Of a DNA stretch of 64,000 bases, positions 1 through 6,616 are shown piece by piece. Position numbers and translations under genes: made by a program. Origin of the DNA: Halopelagius longus (GTDB lineage: Archaea; Halobacteriota; Halobacteria; Halobacteriales; Haloferacaceae); contig NZ_FNKQ01000001.1 in the NCBI RefSeq assembly GCF_900100875.1, forward strand, positions 62,001 to 126,000, written 5' to 3'. The notes below the pieces were generated by a model. The model did no database searches. It was not told the DNA's origin and saw nothing but the letters and a program-made list of their open reading frames with translations. The number at the start of each line of letters is the position of its first letter. Position 1 is the first letter of the stretch.

Positions 1-2
1 TA

Positions 3-419
3 GCACTTGGTCTGTTAAATAGCATACCGTTCGACTACTTGATGAGACGGAAGATCGAGAGGAACCTCGTGATGTACAAACTAACGGAATCACAGGTGCC
101 GAGGCTTACTGAGGGCGATGATTGGTTCAACTACATCTGGGAGCGTGCTGCTCGTCTCAACTGTTATGGGACTGCTTTTGAGGAGATGAGGAATCGGCTG
201 GGTGGTATTGAGCCAGTTGAGGATAAATCGAAGAGGATGGATGTACGGGCAGAGATAGATGCGGCTTCATTCCATGCGTACGGTCTAACTCACCGTGACA
301 CAGAATTCGTTCTCGATACTTTCCACCGTGTATCCTCACCACGTGTAATGACCGACGAATACTTTGATACGGTCCTTGAGAAATATGACCTTCTTAAGCG
401 GGAAGGTCCATACTCATAG
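3..419 (+). CDS. DNA adenine methyltransferase, PglX/Eco57I-like, C-terminal fragment (5' end outside window)
   Basis: The reading frame is open from the left edge, so this is the last 138 residues of a longer protein rather than a 126-residue gene starting at 39. The visible start, LGLLNSIPFDYLMRRKI, is the type of segment found in the target-recognition part of large Eco57I/PglX-type N6-adenine methyltransferases. The later stretch around FHAYGLTHRDTEFVLDTF is the usual C-terminal helix of that family (known forms read H-LYGL-x(4)-ILDTF). The catalytic NPPY motif would lie upstream and cannot be seen. The gene converges on the TBP-like gene with 23 bases between stops. Codon use is AT-richer than the rest of the window. 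The family is fairly sure; which defence system it belongs to is inference. Confidence 0.72.
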   Translation, partial: ALGLLNSIPFDYLMRRKIERNLVMYKLTESQVPRLTEGDDWFNYIWERAARLNCYGTAFEEMRNRLGGIEPVEDKSKRMDVRAEIDAASFHAYGLTHRDTEFVLDTFHRVSSPRVMTDEYFDTVLEKYDLLKREGPYS

Positions 420-442
420 TTCAACATGTTTTATTAAAGGGA

Positions 443-1042
443 TTATCTCTGTATATTGTCCAATTTGTCTTTCAGCCGGGTGAATTCTTTTTGAAGGGCC
501 TCTTCAGAGCGCGGACCGTTTACTGACACCTTTCCCGTCGAAAATACTGTAATAGTAGTCTCCTTCGAGGGCCGATAAAATAAACCGGGAAACTGTTCTG
601 GTTCATATTCTACTTTATCAGACGGTAATTCCTTAAATATGATAGACAAATCTACTTCATTGCCAAGTTCGCCAATACCGACTAAGTATCTAATCTCGAA
701 TTCAGGTGTACTCTCGAGACTAAAATCAGTTATTTCTGATACTTTATCCCTAAACATTCCATCGACTTCGAACAATTGACTGACTGAATTGCCTCCCGCA
801 ATGCTGTATTTTCCACTTTGGAAAAGAGTGACCGTAGGTAAGTCGCCTGAGATAGTCACATAAGCCATTGAGTCCCCGGATTCGTAACTATACTCGAATG
901 AAGAGTCTGCTAATAGTTTATCCAGTTGGAGTTCAACTCCCAGTTCGCCACCACCAACCGCATTTACTACCTGTACCACGTTACTTGACATAGGGACATA
1001 TTGATGAAATACAACCCGGCTCCACCCGATTTGTGCAGTCAT
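443..1042 (-). CDS. Divergent TATA-binding protein (TBP) paralogue
   Basis: A 199-residue protein made of two TBP half-repeats. Repeat 2 is unmistakable: EYEPEQFPGLFYR followed by TVFSTGKVSVNGPRS matches canonical archaeal TBP, including both phenylalanines (EQF and VFSTGK) that intercalate at the TATA box in TBP structures. Repeat 1 is degenerate: the EPEQFPGL block is replaced by unrelated sequence, while LFQSGKYSIAGG is kept. By eye, three of the four intercalating Phe remain. It lies 16 bases after the PLD-helicase gene on the same strand, so it is probably co-transcribed with it. An internal ATG at 991 (MSSNVVQVVNAV) fits the usual TBP N-terminus better and may be the true start. Housekeeping TBP should be elsewhere. 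The role is unknown: autoregulation, or sensing or diversion of viral transcription, are guesses. Confidence 0.8.
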   Translation of the reverse strand: MTAQIGWSRVVFHQYVPMSSNVVQVVNAVGGGELGVELQLDKLLADSSFEYSYESGDSMAYVTISGDLPTVTLFQSGKYSIAGGNSVSQLFEVDGMFRDKVSEITDFSLESTPEFEIRYLVGIGELGNEVDLSIIFKELPSDKVEYEPEQFPGLFYRPSKETTITVFSTGKVSVNGPRSEEALQKEFTRLKDKLDNIQR

Positions 1043-1058
1043 TCATGGATACATACCA

Positions 1059-4000
1059 TCATTTTCCAATCACTCCCCAACAGACAAGTTGAGCCTTCAC
1101 CTGACTCTCTCTAACGAGTTTAGCCTGATACTCAGTAGACGCCTCAATATTCTCTTCAAGGAATGCCTCTAGTTCTTCGAGGAACTCGGTTGACGGCCAG
1201 TCCGGGAACGACTCGTACTCCACATGATGTCGGAATGTCTCGCGGAGAATCCGGTCTTCGTCGGTGTTCCCTAGTTTAATGCCCTTCAGCCGACCGTGGA
1301 GGTCATCTGCCCACTCACCTATCGTCTCGTATTCTTCACGTGAGCAGGGGTCATCCCCGAAGTTCGTCTGAATATAGTGGGCGATGAAGTCCAGAATTGT
1401 CTCCTGCTCCTTTGAGTAGGAGTCACCCTGTTTGAACGCGCCCTCAACCTGCCCCTCGCGTATCGATTCGAGCCTCTCGTCGAGAACGTCCGTAATCTCC
1501 TCGCGGTTCGCCATCACGTGGTCGGTGTTCCCCGAGACCGGCTCACCTTCGACAGACGGACTGATGGAGAGTGTCTGTACAGACCGCTCCTTCACGTCGT
1601 CGCTGAACGGCTTGTAGTAGAATGCCCGTCGAACACGTCCGAGTGGGGCATTCTCATCTTCACTATCGAACCAGAGGTGCGCAAGCCCAAAAACACCCGG
1701 ACGCGGCCCCCTGTCGTGGTTGATAGCATTCGTATAGAGGAACTCTCTTTCTTCCGGCGGGTCGTCGAAAAAGTCCTCGGCGTACTCGAAGTCGTCAGCC
1801 GTGAGCCCGTACTCCTCGTTCAACTCGCGTTTGAGCAGGAAGCGATCGTATGCGGCTTCCTCGTTACTTCCCGCATTTCGTAGGAGGGGGTTCTTCGAGG
1901 TATCGTCAAGTTCATTCACGTCAGAAACCTCGCGAGACCGCCGTAGCGAGTCCTCGATTTCATCGACCTCCAGTTCCCCGATGGTCTTCTGCGTATCGAC
2001 GCCCGCCTTCTCTAGAATCTGATCCTCGTTCGGGTCGAGGATGTTGTTCTCCTTCCCGACGATGAGCGCGATGTCGTTGATTTTCGCCTGCAGTCGCTTC
2101 AGCAACTTGATGGCCGCCTCGATGTCCCCGTCAGGGTAGAAGTTGTGGACGTGCTTCTCCGCCGTACTCCCGATACGGTCAATGCGTCCGACCCGCTGGA
2201 CGATGCGCATCGGATTCCACGGCAAGTCGTAGTTGACCGCGACCTGAACGTCCTGTAGGTTCACACCCTCGCTGAGCGTGTCGGTCGCGACGACGTACTG
2301 GAGTTCAGTTTCGTCCGACTCTGCGAGCGTACTCTGATACCCGGATGCCTGCGGTGCGAACCGCTGGATGATGTCTTGCTTGTTCTCATCGCCGCCTTTC
2401 ACGACCGCGCTGTTCCCCGCTGTCAACGGTGAGTCCGGGTTATCGCGGAGCGTCCGATACACGTAATCGGCCGTTCCTCGATATTGGGTGAAGATGAGGA
2501 CTTTCTTATCGTGACTCTGGAGGACGCTTGCGAGGCGGTCGATTTTCGGGTCGCGGAACTCACGCAAGGAGAACACGGCCTCGTAGAAGTCCCGAGTCGC
2601 GGAGTCTACTTCCGTCAGGTCGCTCCTCGGGTACAGGATGGGATTCATCTCTTCCTCAGGGACATCAGGGAGCGTGCCTGCGTTATGGTCGTGGAGCCAC
2701 TGTCGAACCGTGACTGCGTGGTCACTCACGTCTCCAGTATCCCGTGCCACATCCCCGATGAACTGCGTGAGGAAGTACGCGATCAGCGTCAGGTCCTCGC
2801 GGATGTAAGTCTTGACCTCCCCAATAGTCGCGTCTACCAGTTCGTCCTGCGTCTCCGATTCACCCCCATCAGCCTGCACGGCGGTCGAGTCGAAGCCGAA
2901 TTCTTCGAGTGTCTGTTCGAGATCTTCGGCGGCGTCCTTCCCTTCAACGAAGTCGTCGATGGTTGCAGGGGCTTCTCCGTCCTGTACCGCACGGAGCAGT
3001 TCGATGTCTTCGTCTTCAGGCAGATCCTCCAGCAGACCGAGCAGTCGCCGCTCACTCTGGTGCAATGTTTCGATGGACTGCACGAACGCGTATGTCGAGG
3101 ACTCCAATCGCTTGAGGAGATTCAATTTGTAGAGGGCTTTGAGTGTACTCCCTGCCTTCGGGTTCTTCACCGTGATGTGCGGGAGATGGAGGGCGTCCAT
3201 TACGTCGGGAAGCATTCGGTAGATAGGCTGGTAGGCGGGCGGCAGCGAGTACTGTTCCTTGTGGAGTTTCGGTGGTTTGAAACTCATCTCGAAGTCCTCG
3301 TCGTCCTGAATCTGGTCCTTGACGTGCTTGCGCGTCCGCAGAACCATGACCTCGTTGAGGATATTCGAGATCTCCTTCGACTGGCGCTGCAACTGCTCGG
3401 TGATTTGCTGCTGCTTCTCGTCGGAGACCTCCTCCTTCCCAGCGGCGATGCGCTTGCGTATCTCCGCGAGTTCGATGTATTCGTCGAAGGCGTCGAAGTC
3501 GAGTGAGGCCTTGTTACGAATCTCCTCTGGGCTTGTGAATAGACTGATGAGGTTCTTTAGATCAGTAGCGCTGTTGTTAATGGGTGTCGCGGTCAGCATA
3601 ATCATCGTCTTCCCACGCAACTGCCGGAGGTTCGCGTGCCGCCGCGTCCCTTTGTAGTCATCGTCATGGTCGGGGCTCGGTCGCCACTTCCCAAAGTTAC
3701 GGAAGCGGTGGGCCTCGTCAATGAGTAGAACGTCGAAGTCGTCGCGGAGGTCCTGAACCTCCTCGTAGGTGAGGTTCTGGAACTTACTGACGCTCATTAC
3801 ATCGAGGTGAGTTCCGTCCATCTCCAGCCCGAAGTAGGGGTTGCCGTCCTCGTCGGTTCCATCTTGGAGGAGGTCTTCCCACTGATCGGTCAGGTTCGCC
3901 GGAACAATGAGGAGACAGCGATCACCGCGCTGTCGATAGTCGTAGAGGAGTTCACCACCGATAAATGACTTCCCGAGCCCAACAGAGTCGGAGATGATAC

Positions 4001-4856
4001 AGCCGTCGTACTGGGAGAGTTTCTCACGTGCGCTCTCATAGCCGAGTTTCTGGAAGTAGTACAACGGACTATCTCGTGCACTAACGTTGCCACTTAGTTC
4101 ATCGTAGGCGAGCAGTTTGTAGAGTTCAAACGGTTCGAGGTACGTTCCAAGGGTTTCTGTTTCTTCCTCCTCTTCCGTCTTCTGTTTCTCCTTCCACTCG
4201 CGATAGCGGTCGCTGTTATCTATGACGTCGATGATCTCCTCAGAGAACTTGTCAGAGTTTGCCCACTGATTGTCATACCACTCCTCAAAGGCTTGAGCAT
4301 CACTCGGTTCTTGGCTTGTAAGATTGAGTTCGACGTTGTGTCGATGACCCGTCTGCGAGAAATTTGATGAACCGATGATGGTGACTGATCCTCGTTTGTC
4401 CTTTTCTCCCTCTCGACGTGAGGAGTCATCAACTGCTTCGCGGAAGCAGGCACCTTTTGCGTGGAAATACCCCTGTTCAGGGTCCCGGACACGGATATCA
4501 ACGATGTCCTGAGCGATGAAGTCTCGAAGCCTATCGAGACGGCCTAACTGAGCGTTGTTCAACTGATTAATGTCATCTTCGAGGTCAGAGATGAACTGCT
4601 CTCGAAGAGACTGCCCTTCGTCGACTTCCTCGACGGTTCGACGGTCTGTCTGTCTCCCCATGAGGATGCGCATCGGAGCAGTATCGAGGACATCTGGATC
4701 GAGAAGGTTTTGCAGGTCATCTTTGACGAGGTCAAAACCGGAGAGATAGAAGTAGCCAGTCGCGATCCGCACTTCCTCTGATTCACGGATTACCTCCTGA
4801 TAGACGTCCTCAAGTTTCGTATCAGCGTTGTCGACGAGCGGTTCGACGTATTGCAT
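1059..4856 (-). CDS. PLD-family nuclease fused to SNF2-type helicase
   Basis: 1265 residues. The N-terminal 200 or so form a phospholipase D-like domain: HxK in FHAKGACF (H132, K134), GSSNFSQTG near 162-170 and HNVELN near 173. An SF2/SNF2 ATPase follows: Walker A SVGLGKS (291-297), DEAH (about 380-383), TATP (about 422-425), a long acidic and coiled insertion (450-750), then the second RecA lobe with ATDTLSEGVNLQ and the arginine-finger motif QRVGRIDRIG (about 887-896). The last 350 residues are unassigned. PLD-helicase fusions occur in restriction, BREX and DISARM-type loci, where they translocate on and possibly cut foreign DNA. The partners here are a PglX-like methyltransferase and a TBP-like protein. 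Start ATG 4856 sits in a 108-base divergent region shared with the BRCT gene. Confidence 0.85.
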   Translation of the reverse strand: MQYVEPLVDNADTKLEDVYQEVIRESEEVRIATGYFYLSGFDLVKDDLQNLLDPDVLDTAPMRILMGRQTDRRTVEEVDEGQSLREQFISDLEDDINQLNNAQLGRLDRLRDFIAQDIVDIRVRDPEQGYFHAKGACFREAVDDSSRREGEKDKRGSVTIIGSSNFSQTGHRHNVELNLTSQEPSDAQAFEEWYDNQWANSDKFSEEIIDVIDNSDRYREWKEKQKTEEEEETETLGTYLEPFELYKLLAYDELSGNVSARDSPLYYFQKLGYESAREKLSQYDGCIISDSVGLGKSFIGGELLYDYRQRGDRCLLIVPANLTDQWEDLLQDGTDEDGNPYFGLEMDGTHLDVMSVSKFQNLTYEEVQDLRDDFDVLLIDEAHRFRNFGKWRPSPDHDDDYKGTRRHANLRQLRGKTMIMLTATPINNSATDLKNLISLFTSPEEIRNKASLDFDAFDEYIELAEIRKRIAAGKEEVSDEKQQQITEQLQRQSKEISNILNEVMVLRTRKHVKDQIQDDEDFEMSFKPPKLHKEQYSLPPAYQPIYRMLPDVMDALHLPHITVKNPKAGSTLKALYKLNLLKRLESSTYAFVQSIETLHQSERRLLGLLEDLPEDEDIELLRAVQDGEAPATIDDFVEGKDAAEDLEQTLEEFGFDSTAVQADGGESETQDELVDATIGEVKTYIREDLTLIAYFLTQFIGDVARDTGDVSDHAVTVRQWLHDHNAGTLPDVPEEEMNPILYPRSDLTEVDSATRDFYEAVFSLREFRDPKIDRLASVLQSHDKKVLIFTQYRGTADYVYRTLRDNPDSPLTAGNSAVVKGGDENKQDIIQRFAPQASGYQSTLAESDETELQYVVATDTLSEGVNLQDVQVAVNYDLPWNPMRIVQRVGRIDRIGSTAEKHVHNFYPDGDIEAAIKLLKRLQAKINDIALIVGKENNILDPNEDQILEKAGVDTQKTIGELEVDEIEDSLRRSREVSDVNELDDTSKNPLLRNAGSNEEAAYDRFLLKRELNEEYGLTADDFEYAEDFFDDPPEEREFLYTNAINHDRGPRPGVFGLAHLWFDSEDENAPLGRVRRAFYYKPFSDDVKERSVQTLSISPSVEGEPVSGNTDHVMANREEITDVLDERLESIREGQVEGAFKQGDSYSKEQETILDFIAHYIQTNFGDDPCSREEYETIGEWADDLHGRLKGIKLGNTDEDRILRETFRHHVEYESFPDWPSTEFLEELEAFLEENIEASTEYQAKLVRESQVKAQLVCWGVIGK

Positions 4857-4927
4857 CTATCACGTCTGTCTCGTCATCGTTGCTTAATGTTTCCCCGGAA
4901 CGCCGAAGGACTAACCGAGGGTGCGAA

Positions 4928-4937
4928 CATATAACTA
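4928..4937 (+). promoter_or_regulatory. TATA box of the BRCT gene
   Basis: An AT-rich catataacta stretch centred about 32 bases before the ATG at 4965, the expected place for an archaeal TATA box giving a very short leader. It lies in the 108-base gap shared with the divergently transcribed helicase gene, whose own promoter is less clear. Confidence 0.5.
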
Positions 4938-4964
4938 ACTCTGAATAAACCATCTCTGCATCCC

Positions 4965-5762
4965 ATGCCCTCAACCGAAATCCCCGACGATGTCGGTGGT
5001 GCAGACTTCCGGAACGCGTCTGACCTCGATGGGTGCAAAGTCGTCTGTACGGGAAGACTAGAGGAGGTAACTCGTGCTGATTTCAAGGAGATCGTTGAAA
5101 GCTACGGCGGTAAGGTGACGAACAACATCTCACAAAAAACCGACGTCCTAGTCGTCGGCGACAACCCCGGAACGGAGAAAATCGAGTTCCTCCAAGAGCA
5201 TGAAACGCCTACCCTCACCGAACACGGATTCTACTCTCTCTTTCCGGAACGGTTCAAGCACGTCGACGGAGTACTTGACGAATCAGGTGGGCAGTCCACA
5301 CTCCCCAAAGGTGCCGAAGAGCGTGTTCAGATCGAACTCAGTCCGTTGGCTCTCCATCTAGCAGAGGCCACTGCCGAGGAACAAGGAGAGGACCTATCGG
5401 GTCTCTGTAATCGTTCAACTCGGAACCTCCTGAAGGGGGTGATTGATGGCGACCACCCATCTATCGAGACTCCAGAGAACGCGGAAGTAGTAGAAGTCAC
5501 CCTCCCAGAGGGTCTCTTTGCGATGGTTGAGACAGCAGTCGAAACTACGCCGGAAGCAGAGACAGTGGAGACGTTTGTCGCGGAGGCAGTAAAGAGAAAG
5601 ATTGGATTCAAATCCGGTGAGACGCAAGAAGTGAAATTGGAACTCCCTCAATCTGCGGTCACCCTACTCCAGAAGGTATCGCAGGACGAGGAGCAAGACA
5701 TGGAAGCGGTCGCCGAGAAGATGCTCTTGAGTGGACTTCGATTACAGTTAGAATCGCCGTAG
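4965..5762 (+). CDS. BRCT-domain protein with three C-terminal ribbon-helix-helix-like repeats
   Basis: 265 residues. Residues 20-95 form a BRCT domain like the one at the end of NAD-dependent DNA ligases: GCKVVCTGRLEEVTR, then ESYGGKVTNNISQKTDVLVVGDNPG in pieces. The C-terminal half carries three diverged copies of one unit, a short amphipathic strand followed by two helices: about 119-157 (VQIELSPLALHLAEA), 174-213 (VVEVTLPEGLFAMVE) and 221-262 (EVKLELPQSAVTLLQ). That unit resembles ribbon-helix-helix (CopG/Arc) DNA-binding folds. BRCT domains bind DNA ends or partner proteins, so this may be a DNA-end or nick sensor or a recruiter for the neighbouring helicase-nuclease. It is divergent from the helicase gene. 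BRCT is confident; the RHH reading is inference. Confidence 0.78.
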   Translation: MPSTEIPDDVGGADFRNASDLDGCKVVCTGRLEEVTRADFKEIVESYGGKVTNNISQKTDVLVVGDNPGTEKIEFLQEHETPTLTEHGFYSLFPERFKHVDGVLDESGGQSTLPKGAEERVQIELSPLALHLAEATAEEQGEDLSGLCNRSTRNLLKGVIDGDHPSIETPENAEVVEVTLPEGLFAMVETAVETTPEAETVETFVAEAVKRKIGFKSGETQEVKLELPQSAVTLLQKVSQDEEQDMEAVAEKMLLSGLRLQLESP

Positions 5763-5834
5763 ACTAGTCACCACCGGAACGAGTCATGACAAGACGGCTC
5801 AAGGATTATCACGAGAGAGCGAGAAAGGCCAACC

Positions 5835-6179
5835 ATGAGCGCAGACGTCACTGAGACTGCCACAAAATCAGATTACGCTAACCTCGTCGCAGATATCGTT
5901 GGTCATCCCACAGGGGCACCGACTGTAGAAGAATTAGAATACATGAGTCCGTCAATTCCGATTGGAGAGCTACAGAGTCATCTTAGGACTTTAGAACAGA
6001 CAGGTGTTATCGAACTGATGGAGACGGACTCACACACCTTTTGTCGACTTACGAACGATGCCTGGAAAGAATTCGACGAGAGAGGGTTGTTTCCGGAACG
6101 ACCATGGAGGCGACAGTATTCTCGGGTTCAGAAGACGACTAAAATCGAGAGACTCGAAGAGATAGATCGACCGTGGTGA
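5835..6179 (+). CDS. Small winged-helix (ArsR-like) transcriptional regulator
   Basis: 114 residues. Residues 14-78 read as a winged helix: a first helix (YANLVADIVGHP), a helix-turn-helix (TVEELEYMSPSIPIGELQSHLRTLEQ in parts) and a wing (GVIELMETDSHTFCRLT). This is the pattern of haloarchaeal ArsR/MarR-like small regulators. No metal-binding Cys/His cluster is visible. It follows the BRCT gene on the same strand after 72 bases and is the last gene before the tRNA, so it may be the island's regulator. The target is unknown. Confidence 0.65.
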   Translation: MSADVTETATKSDYANLVADIVGHPTGAPTVEELEYMSPSIPIGELQSHLRTLEQTGVIELMETDSHTFCRLTNDAWKEFDERGLFPERPWRRQYSRVQKTTKIERLEEIDRPW

Positions 6180-6543
6180 CAGGCTGGTATGGTCGGGCGG
6201 TTAAAAAAGAAGGTTGGGAGAACTGTTCGAGACATAAAGATGAACGAACAACGATTTGTATTGATATCCCGATTACATTCAATCGTGTAGCACCGGTGGA
6301 TTAGTTTTCTGACGTATTTCTAGAATTCACTGTAGACTGTATCCATTCTATCTCCCTCGCTAATAAGCGGTTCATGACAATACAATGGATAGAATTACCT
6401 ATCTTGGTCACGTTTGACTCTAGAGAATCACGTGACGGCGACGACCCGGGATATGTAGCATGACGAACTCACCTTACGGACAAGGACGGGGTACATAAAC
6501 GATCTACCGCCGTCTGTTGAATTCAGACCGTCATGGAGAATGA
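6180..6543. other. Non-coding AT-rich gap between island and tRNA
   Basis: I see no gene in these 364 bases. Composition is much AT-richer than the sequence beyond the tRNA and matches the island. No second copy of the tRNA 3' end is present between 1 and 6540, so if the island was integrated here its other attachment site lies outside the window. Confidence 0.6.
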
Positions 6544-6546
6544 CGG
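6528..6546. repeat. Perfect inverted repeat at the tRNA 3' end
   Basis: CCGTCAT, a 5-base loop (ggaga), then ATGACGG. The hairpin runs into the last bases of tRNA-Arg, so it would form in the 3' trailer of the precursor. It could be a processing or termination element, or part of an integration site. Confidence 0.5.
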
Positions 6547-6616
6547 ACCCGACGGGATTTGAACCCGCGACATCTTGGTCCGGAACCAAGCACTCTGTCC
6601 GCTGAGCTACGGGCCC
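6544..6616 (-). tRNA. tRNA-Arg (anticodon CCG)
   Basis: A complete 73-base cloverleaf reads on the minus strand: acceptor GGGCCCG/CGGGTCC with one G-U pair, D arm GCTC-loop-GAGT, anticodon arm CTTGG-TTCCGGA-CCAAG giving anticodon CCG, five-base variable loop, and T arm GCGGG-TTCAAAT-CCCGT. The discriminator base is G, and CCA is not encoded, as usual in haloarchaea. No intron is seen. It decodes CGG. Its 3' end faces the AT-rich island at 1-6540, the standard orientation for integration into a tRNA gene. Confidence 0.96.

Follow-up and report, generated by a model that had tools for sequence, protein, structure and literature searches.

Why does a gene for a divergent paralogue of the TATA-binding protein (TBP) lie inside a restriction-type locus of the haloarchaeon Halopelagius longus? 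The locus occupies the left 6.5 kb of the 64,000-nucleotide stretch analysed here (the window; contig NZ_FNKQ01000001.1, positions 62,001 to 126,000, or G000:C1:62001-126000). A sequence-only reading of this DNA had described the end of an Eco57I-type methyltransferase gene, a PLD-SNF2 helicase gene with a TBP gene in the same operon, a BRCT protein with three ribbon-helix-helix (RHH)-like repeats, a winged-helix regulator and a tRNA edge, and it had proposed that the genes form an undescribed dedicated system in a mobile module. The five genes and the tRNA edge were all confirmed at the positions given by that reading (Table 1), the content is of defence type, with a type IIG methyltransferase and a PLD-SNF2 helicase, and the TBP gene is codirectional with the helicase gene and directly downstream of it. 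The locus is best explained as a IIG methyltransferase and PLD-SNF2 restriction-type system that has acquired a TBP of its own and also a rare BRCT-RHH protein. The association of such TBPs with many kinds of systems is broader than the single locus that had been proposed.

Divergent TBPs are a restriction- and defence-linked subfamily and a modular partner of mechanistically different systems across Halobacteria. TBPs were gathered from a sample of 292 haloarchaeal genomes by TBP similarity alone, with flanks of about 6 kb where contigs allowed, and a few were added through the helicase and BRCT loci. The resulting 105 TBPs comprise 71 divergent and 28 canonical ones, split by sequence pattern and checked against tree order, and 6 of a deeper group. 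When restriction labels were assigned by Pfam for scanned representatives and by BLAST for the others, a restriction or defence gene was found within 150 bp of 49 of the 71 divergent TBPs, within 1 kb of 58 and within 3 kb of 65, versus 0 of the 28 canonical ones. Collapsing the divergent TBPs at 80% identity leaves 58 sequences, with 39, 47 and 52 of them linked at the same three distances; the canonical control is smaller and comes down to 6 sequences after collapsing. Two results are independent of this control. In a profile by gene rank, restriction and defence genes make up 50% of first neighbours versus 0-7% at rank 4 and beyond. The restriction query set was drawn from TBP neighbours and thus carries a risk of circularity, which is countered by a separate curated hidden Markov model, Pfam HsdM_N: hsdM lies within 10 kb of 26 of 94 divergent TBPs versus 0.39 expected, a value that presumes uniform placement in the genome and ignores clustering in islands, which the rank profile covers. 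Among canonical-type TBPs, the count is 1 of 40.

The partner systems, identified with Pfam, are type I, Eco57I/IIG, SNF2 plus methyltransferase, PLD-SNF2, BREX, ARMADA-like, DUF1156 and NotI-like. The labelled TBPs are distributed over them as 18, 18, 15, 6 and 6 for the first five and one each for the last three, the labels being best BLAST matches and hence approximate. The restriction gene precedes a codirectional TBP gene in 34 cases and follows it in 14, and the two are divergent in 9 and convergent in 7; many of the genes overlap by 1-8 bp. TBP lineage tracks system type, with 26 changes versus 37.8 +/- 2.1 after shuffling, and many switches remain. Plasmid records annotated by NCBI also show the linkage. 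A protein annotated by NCBI as 'TATA-box-binding protein C' sits within BREX-5 loci, a DNA methyltransferase adjoins a TBP in a plasmid record of Haloferax lucentense, and VNG_RS12735 on pNRC100 of Halobacterium NRC-1 is the third gene of a methyltransferase-helicase-TBP operon with 4-bp overlaps. VNG_RS12735 lacks the N-repeat Phe pair and aligns well with divergent TBPs; because tbpC is stated to have lost its N-terminal pair (PMC4230888), these residues indicate that VNG_RS12735 is likely the NRC-1 tbpC. A search of viral contigs with divergent TBPs gave 10 matches, of which one lies beside an Eco57I methyltransferase (L157) and at least two are of canonical type.

The residues that divergent TBPs keep and lose are distributed unevenly between the two repeats. 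All four intercalating Phe residues are present in 28 of 28 canonical haloarchaeal TBPs. In the 71 divergent ones, Phe is kept at the two N-repeat sites in 5 and 13, the second site being mostly Tyr, and at both C-repeat sites in 65. The C-repeat stirrup YEPEQFPG, with an entropy of 0-0.54 bits, is among the most conserved stretches, the N-repeat stirrup reaching 1.5-3.2 bits, and the motif is intact in 60 of the 71 proteins at an overall identity of 25-40%. In known complexes of TBP with TFIIB or TFB, the stirrup bears the contacts with TFIIB/TFB, made by acidic residues, as well as the DNA-intercalating Phe. The simplest reading is that selection may still maintain the capacity of a divergent TBP to bind TFB and one half of a TATA box.

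The window TBP is a two-repeat saddle of family PF00352 (Pfam E 4.7e-24), and its AlphaFold2 model (mean pLDDT 87.6) shows the full saddle, with Z 18-20 against solved TBPs over about 177 residues. In its C repeat, the Phe pair is kept in an intact stirrup (YEPEQFPGLFYR) and in ITVFSTGK; in its N repeat, the first intercalating Phe (FPG) is lost and the second is kept (TLFQSGK). In the tree, which gives the order of groups only, it groups with the divergent and not with the canonical TBPs. A tbpC-like haloarchaeal group with the N-repeat Phe pair lost and the C-repeat pair kept, as in the divergent TBPs, was described in 2014, one member with a single N-repeat Phe loss being admitted, and its role was left open as 'either nonfunctional' or 'a very specialized role' (PMC4230888). 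Unlike the present analysis, that text has neither the word restriction nor the word defense. No description of a linkage of haloarchaeal TBPs to restriction, BREX, DISARM or defence was found in the literature searched, which mostly excluded subscription papers. The linkage gives a concrete, testable role to the TbpC subfamily, left without an assigned function since 2014, and it addresses the long-standing question of TBP multiplicity in haloarchaea.

We consider it probable that the divergent TBP is a regulator of the adjacent system. A regulator is favoured over a subunit because the partner enzymes are unrelated, the TBP gene frequently lies at the end of the operon with overlaps of 1-8 bp, its presence is optional and the TFB stirrup is conserved. 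In the proposed mechanism, the TBP would be co-produced with its system, often by translational coupling. The intact C-terminal repeat would hold TFB and the upstream half of the TATA element, and the altered N-terminal repeat would shift promoter choice or bending. The TBP could then tune transcription of its own system, either through an alternative pre-initiation complex or through unproductive promoter occupancy, which would keep restriction activity in balance when the system enters a new host or when its host is infected. TFB binding, DNA binding, the target promoters and the sign of regulation are here inferred from the sequences. Small DNA-binding regulators encoded beside or within many restriction and defence systems are known from bacteria as C proteins, the BrxR/CapW WYL repressors and RptR (PMC12255303), and the divergent TBP is a candidate for a comparable role. 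However, those regulators are of HTH or WYL type and act on promoters of bacteria, whereas the divergent TBP has a general transcription factor as its paralogue and is predicted to work through TFB. If this is true, such a paralogue has been recruited as a dedicated, horizontally mobile immunity regulator. The linkage also makes a divergent TBP a simple marker for finding new archaeal defence systems. With slightly less than even probability, the regulatory role extends to a general scheme in which a large part of the mobile restriction and defence repertoire of haloarchaea is under the control of system-specific TBPs. Half-altered, these would enter alternative pre-initiation complexes with TFB, and some systems would use two different ones at once. 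That two TBPs of different subclades in one system would suit opposing roles is speculation.

Several observations weigh against a regulatory role. The regions upstream of helicase, IIG and hsdM genes were compared between loci with and without TBP. Within the window's helicase subfamily, loci whose helicase gene adjoins a TBP gene (G134, G141) and loci lacking one (G046, G078) share one promoter element, which therefore does not require this TBP. TBP-specific promoters were rejected for the helicase and IIG genes, whose elements are independent of TBP. The hsdM upstream sets with and without TBP do differ, but they belong to different hsdM subfamilies. Deletion of tbpC in Halobacterium NRC-1 had no apparent phenotype (PMC2121645), and no tbpC transcript was detected in strain PHH1 (PMC4230888). 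A role in restriction or defence would explain phenotype-free growth in the laboratory; however, the absent transcript and the phenotype-free knockout fit silence or dispensability as well. In addition, membership of a TBP in a conflict system need not involve a known role at promoters, the bacterial TOTE and TALON systems being examples (PMC12458937).

Such systems, in which a TBP is likewise encoded inside a predicted conflict or defence operon, are among the points for a different role, in which the TBP would be a DNA-binding or bending subunit of the restriction or defence complex, serving as a loading platform for an SNF2/SF2 translocase or sensing nucleic acids that are distorted or hybrid, rather than a transcription regulator. 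The eukaryotic SNF2 enzyme Mot1 binds TBP, and the structural matches of the window TBP model include a Mot1-TBP complex. SNF2/SF2 ATPases make up many of the partners of divergent TBPs, and the presence of a TBP makes no difference to the helicase promoters. However, the type I, IIG, NotI-like, BREX and ARMADA-like partners have no common subunit architecture, the PLD-SNF2/IIG pair mostly lacks an adjoining TBP, and the most conserved surface of divergent TBPs includes the C-repeat stirrup, which is the TFIIB/TFB contact site in known complexes. We therefore regard a subunit role as unlikely. TALON itself was described from Bacillati, mostly Chloroflexota, with genes for TPR-CSD, a NERD nuclease and YprA (PMC12458937), none of which was seen in the element that carries the window locus.

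TbpC-like proteins might instead act globally by redirecting or competing with the host pre-initiation complex, for example against viral promoters, their proximity to restriction genes reflecting joint island cargo. Many divergent TBPs do reside on plasmids or islands, and several systems have two TBPs of different subclades. Yet the linkage is strongest for the adjoining gene and has dropped to background a few genes away, genes overlap by 1-8 bp, TBP lineage tracks system type, and restriction genes are not found near canonical-type paralogues, of which some also lie on plasmids or small contigs, all of which makes global action improbable. Functionless decay with hitchhiking, to which the degenerate N repeat, in-frame stops in some copies and the knockout without apparent phenotype would point, is very improbable, as the C-repeat stirrup is strongly constrained at 25-40% overall identity, the motif is intact in 60 of 71 proteins, open frames dominate and divergent TBPs recur in at least seven families.

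The enzymatic core of the locus is not new. Full-length homologues of the PLD-SNF2 helicase occur at 35 loci in 32 of the 292 genomes, those other than the window's own being 59-89% identical to it, and all 35 have PLD HxK and GSxN motifs fused to the SNF2 helicase. The window's helicase itself has PLD HxK and GSSN, Walker A, DEAH, TATP and QRVGRIDR motifs; its top PADLOC score is for C3a139 (265 bits), and its score for NCBIfam DrmD is 130.7 versus a cut-off of 610. Because a IIG gene or fragment lies within 8 kb of the helicase in 34 of the 35 loci, mostly convergent and tens of bases away, the IIG methyltransferase and the PLD-SNF2 helicase are a conserved unit, which resembles the PADLOC candidate 'HKD+Snf2'. 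The 35th locus (L020) sits on a 7.5-kb contig and is cut by a contig end. What had been described as a methyltransferase end belongs to a complete type IIG-like protein: its C-terminal part in the window matches PADLOC type IIG (E 1.7e-7), which is also the best PADLOC match of the full protein, and the full gene has an Eco57I/N6 methyltransferase domain (Eco57I E 1.2e-25) with an NPPY/F/W-class motif. Its N-terminus has no Pfam nuclease domain and only weak PD-D/E-x-K-like strings. As a side observation, unusual promoter-like elements are conserved in the 35 loci, with ACTAAGT preceding the helicase gene and TTGATA the methyltransferase gene, each at an almost fixed spacing from the start codon.

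The pair mostly has no adjoining TBP or BRCT gene, and a dedicated five-gene system was rejected on this ground; the pair is the stable unit. The co-conservation of TBP-like and PLD-helicase genes that the sequence-only reading had asked for was nevertheless found: a TBP lies between the two convergent genes in 4 of 35 helicase loci (G000, G072, G134 and G141), codirectional with the methyltransferase in G072 and with the helicase in the other three, and a more distant TBP relative adjoins the pair in G075 and G037. The G134 and G141 helicases are 84-86% identical to the window's, whereas their TBPs are about 30% identical to the window TBP, and this suggests repeated acquisition or very fast change of the TBP in such loci.

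The BRCT-RHH protein is rare. Relatives spanning its full length turned up in two species only, Halorussus litoreus and Haloferax prahovense, and in 3 of 3 full-length cases, a small sample, the gene lies near a system with a methyltransferase and a PLD-domain protein. In Halorussus litoreus, TBP and BRCT genes recur beside a different, distantly related pair, in the order IIG-like methyltransferase, PLD-SNF2 helicase (about 27% identical to the window's), two small genes, BRCT and TBP. The Haloferax prahovense gene is about 1.6 kb from an HmaC/HmaB/PbeA-like system. The BRCT domain stands as described; of the three RHH-like repeats, two are clear beta-alpha-alpha units in the model and the third has no confident strand (pLDDT 50-84 outside BRCT). 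The top Foldseek matches of the RHH part are tandem-RHH chains of the F-plasmid relaxosome, with an E of 0.03. The modelled structure, BRCT with tandem RHH-like units, hints at a protein that binds DNA and may in addition hold a partner. BRCT-RHH had no match in viral contigs, and in plasmids the matches were to the BRCT domain only. A 575-aa protein at L086:7533-9260 (G324) matches the RHH part, the BRCT match being absent. As for the winged-helix regulator, the 114-aa gene is present, its profile support is weak, and its winged-helix identity is a guess.

Table 1. Features at the left end of the window (positions counted from the first base of the window)
Feature	Position	Strand	Remarks
Type IIG-like Eco57I restriction-methyltransferase, C-terminal end	1..419	+	Whole gene G000:C1:58793-62419, 1208 aa, NPPW motif
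Divergent (TbpC-like) TBP, 199 aa	443..1042	-	16 bp downstream of helicase gene; Met18 is an alternative start
PLD (HKD)-SNF2 helicase, 1265 aa	1059..4856	-	PLD and SNF2/Helicase_C (Pfam); PADLOC candidate family C3a139 'HKD+Snf2'
Promoter-like element ATTAAGC	4882..4888	-	Upstream of helicase, where relatives have ACTAAGT; read from sequence
TATA-like element TATAAC	4930..4935	+	About 30 bp upstream of BRCT gene; read from sequence
BRCT protein with ribbon-helix-helix-like repeats, 265 aa	4965..5762	+	Divergent from helicase; BRCT E 3.7e-13
Small winged-helix-like protein, 114 aa	5835..6179	+	Weak profile matches only (HxlR E 0.06)
Right attachment repeat ACGGACCCGACGGGATTTGAACC	6543..6565	.	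3' end of tRNA-Arg plus 1 bp, 23 bp
tRNA-Arg (CCG)	6544..6616	-	Right border of element

The locus resides in a tRNA-targeted integrative element with an integrase and direct repeats of the tRNA end, in agreement with the mobile module proposed. The five genes are cargo of this element of about 28 kb (C1:40606-68566), of which the window's left 6.5 kb are the end. A 23-bp copy of the tRNA-Arg 3' end at G000:C1:40606-40628 forms the left attachment repeat, and a tyrosine-recombinase (integrase) gene lies 180 bp from it. The GC content is 44-59% inside versus about 60-70% outside, with 65-70% right of the tRNA. In G122, of the same genus, 90 bp of left flank are fused straight to the tRNA side, an arrangement consistent with an empty integration site. 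ARAGORN does not recognise the tRNA-Arg copy of G122 (L135, about 3107-3275), which contains about 50 additional bases; it may hold an intron or be a damaged copy.

The analysis took in 54 kb of sequence to the left of the window. Genes were called with a simple open reading frame script, and the larger genes of the element were then scanned with Pfam. Further genes are a second integrase, ParA, a ParB-like protein, a DUF7342 protein and a CoiA-like protein. The scan found no pglZ, brxC/pglY, drmA or drmB in the element, and no second large helicase or DrmB-like gene was seen among its gene calls and Pfam matches. Extension to the left thus completed the methyltransferase and ruled out a complete BREX or DISARM locus there. 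The locus shares its methyltransferase and PLD-SNF2 helicase enzymology with PADLOC C3a139 'HKD+Snf2' with type IIG, DISARM DrmMI/DrmD, HmaABC and ARMADA; it differs from DISARM, HmaABC and ARMADA in that no DrmA/B/C, HmaC or YprA was seen in its element. BREX-5 loci of Halobacteria can likewise carry a TbpC-like gene; however, the genes seen in the window's element did not include PglZ, BrxB or BrxC.

Some further observations concern individual TBP loci. Some systems have two divergent TBPs, typically from separate subclades, such as a type I operon with a TBP at either end; such loci are L087, L089, L076 and L078 (type I), L056 and L068 (SNF2-methyltransferase), and L062 and L059. In the ARMADA-like operon L055 (G195), which encodes an Eco57I methyltransferase, a DEAD/MrfA-type helicase and SNF2, the TBP lies between the methyltransferase and the helicase. 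Divergent TBPs in L102 (G108) and L158 adjoin small N4/N6-type methyltransferase-like genes, probably restriction systems that the BLAST labels missed. The viral contigs L159 and L164 (IMG/VR) carry TBPs with canonical-looking stirrups in both repeats. Finally, a protein of 71-75 aa of the type 'VRIDIPDETDPDxxxHGxxGxV' recurs near defence-linked TBPs, at L039:8614-8838, L007:11921-12136, L038:3448-3672, L078:5750-5977, L095:5561-5788 and L108:6786-7013.

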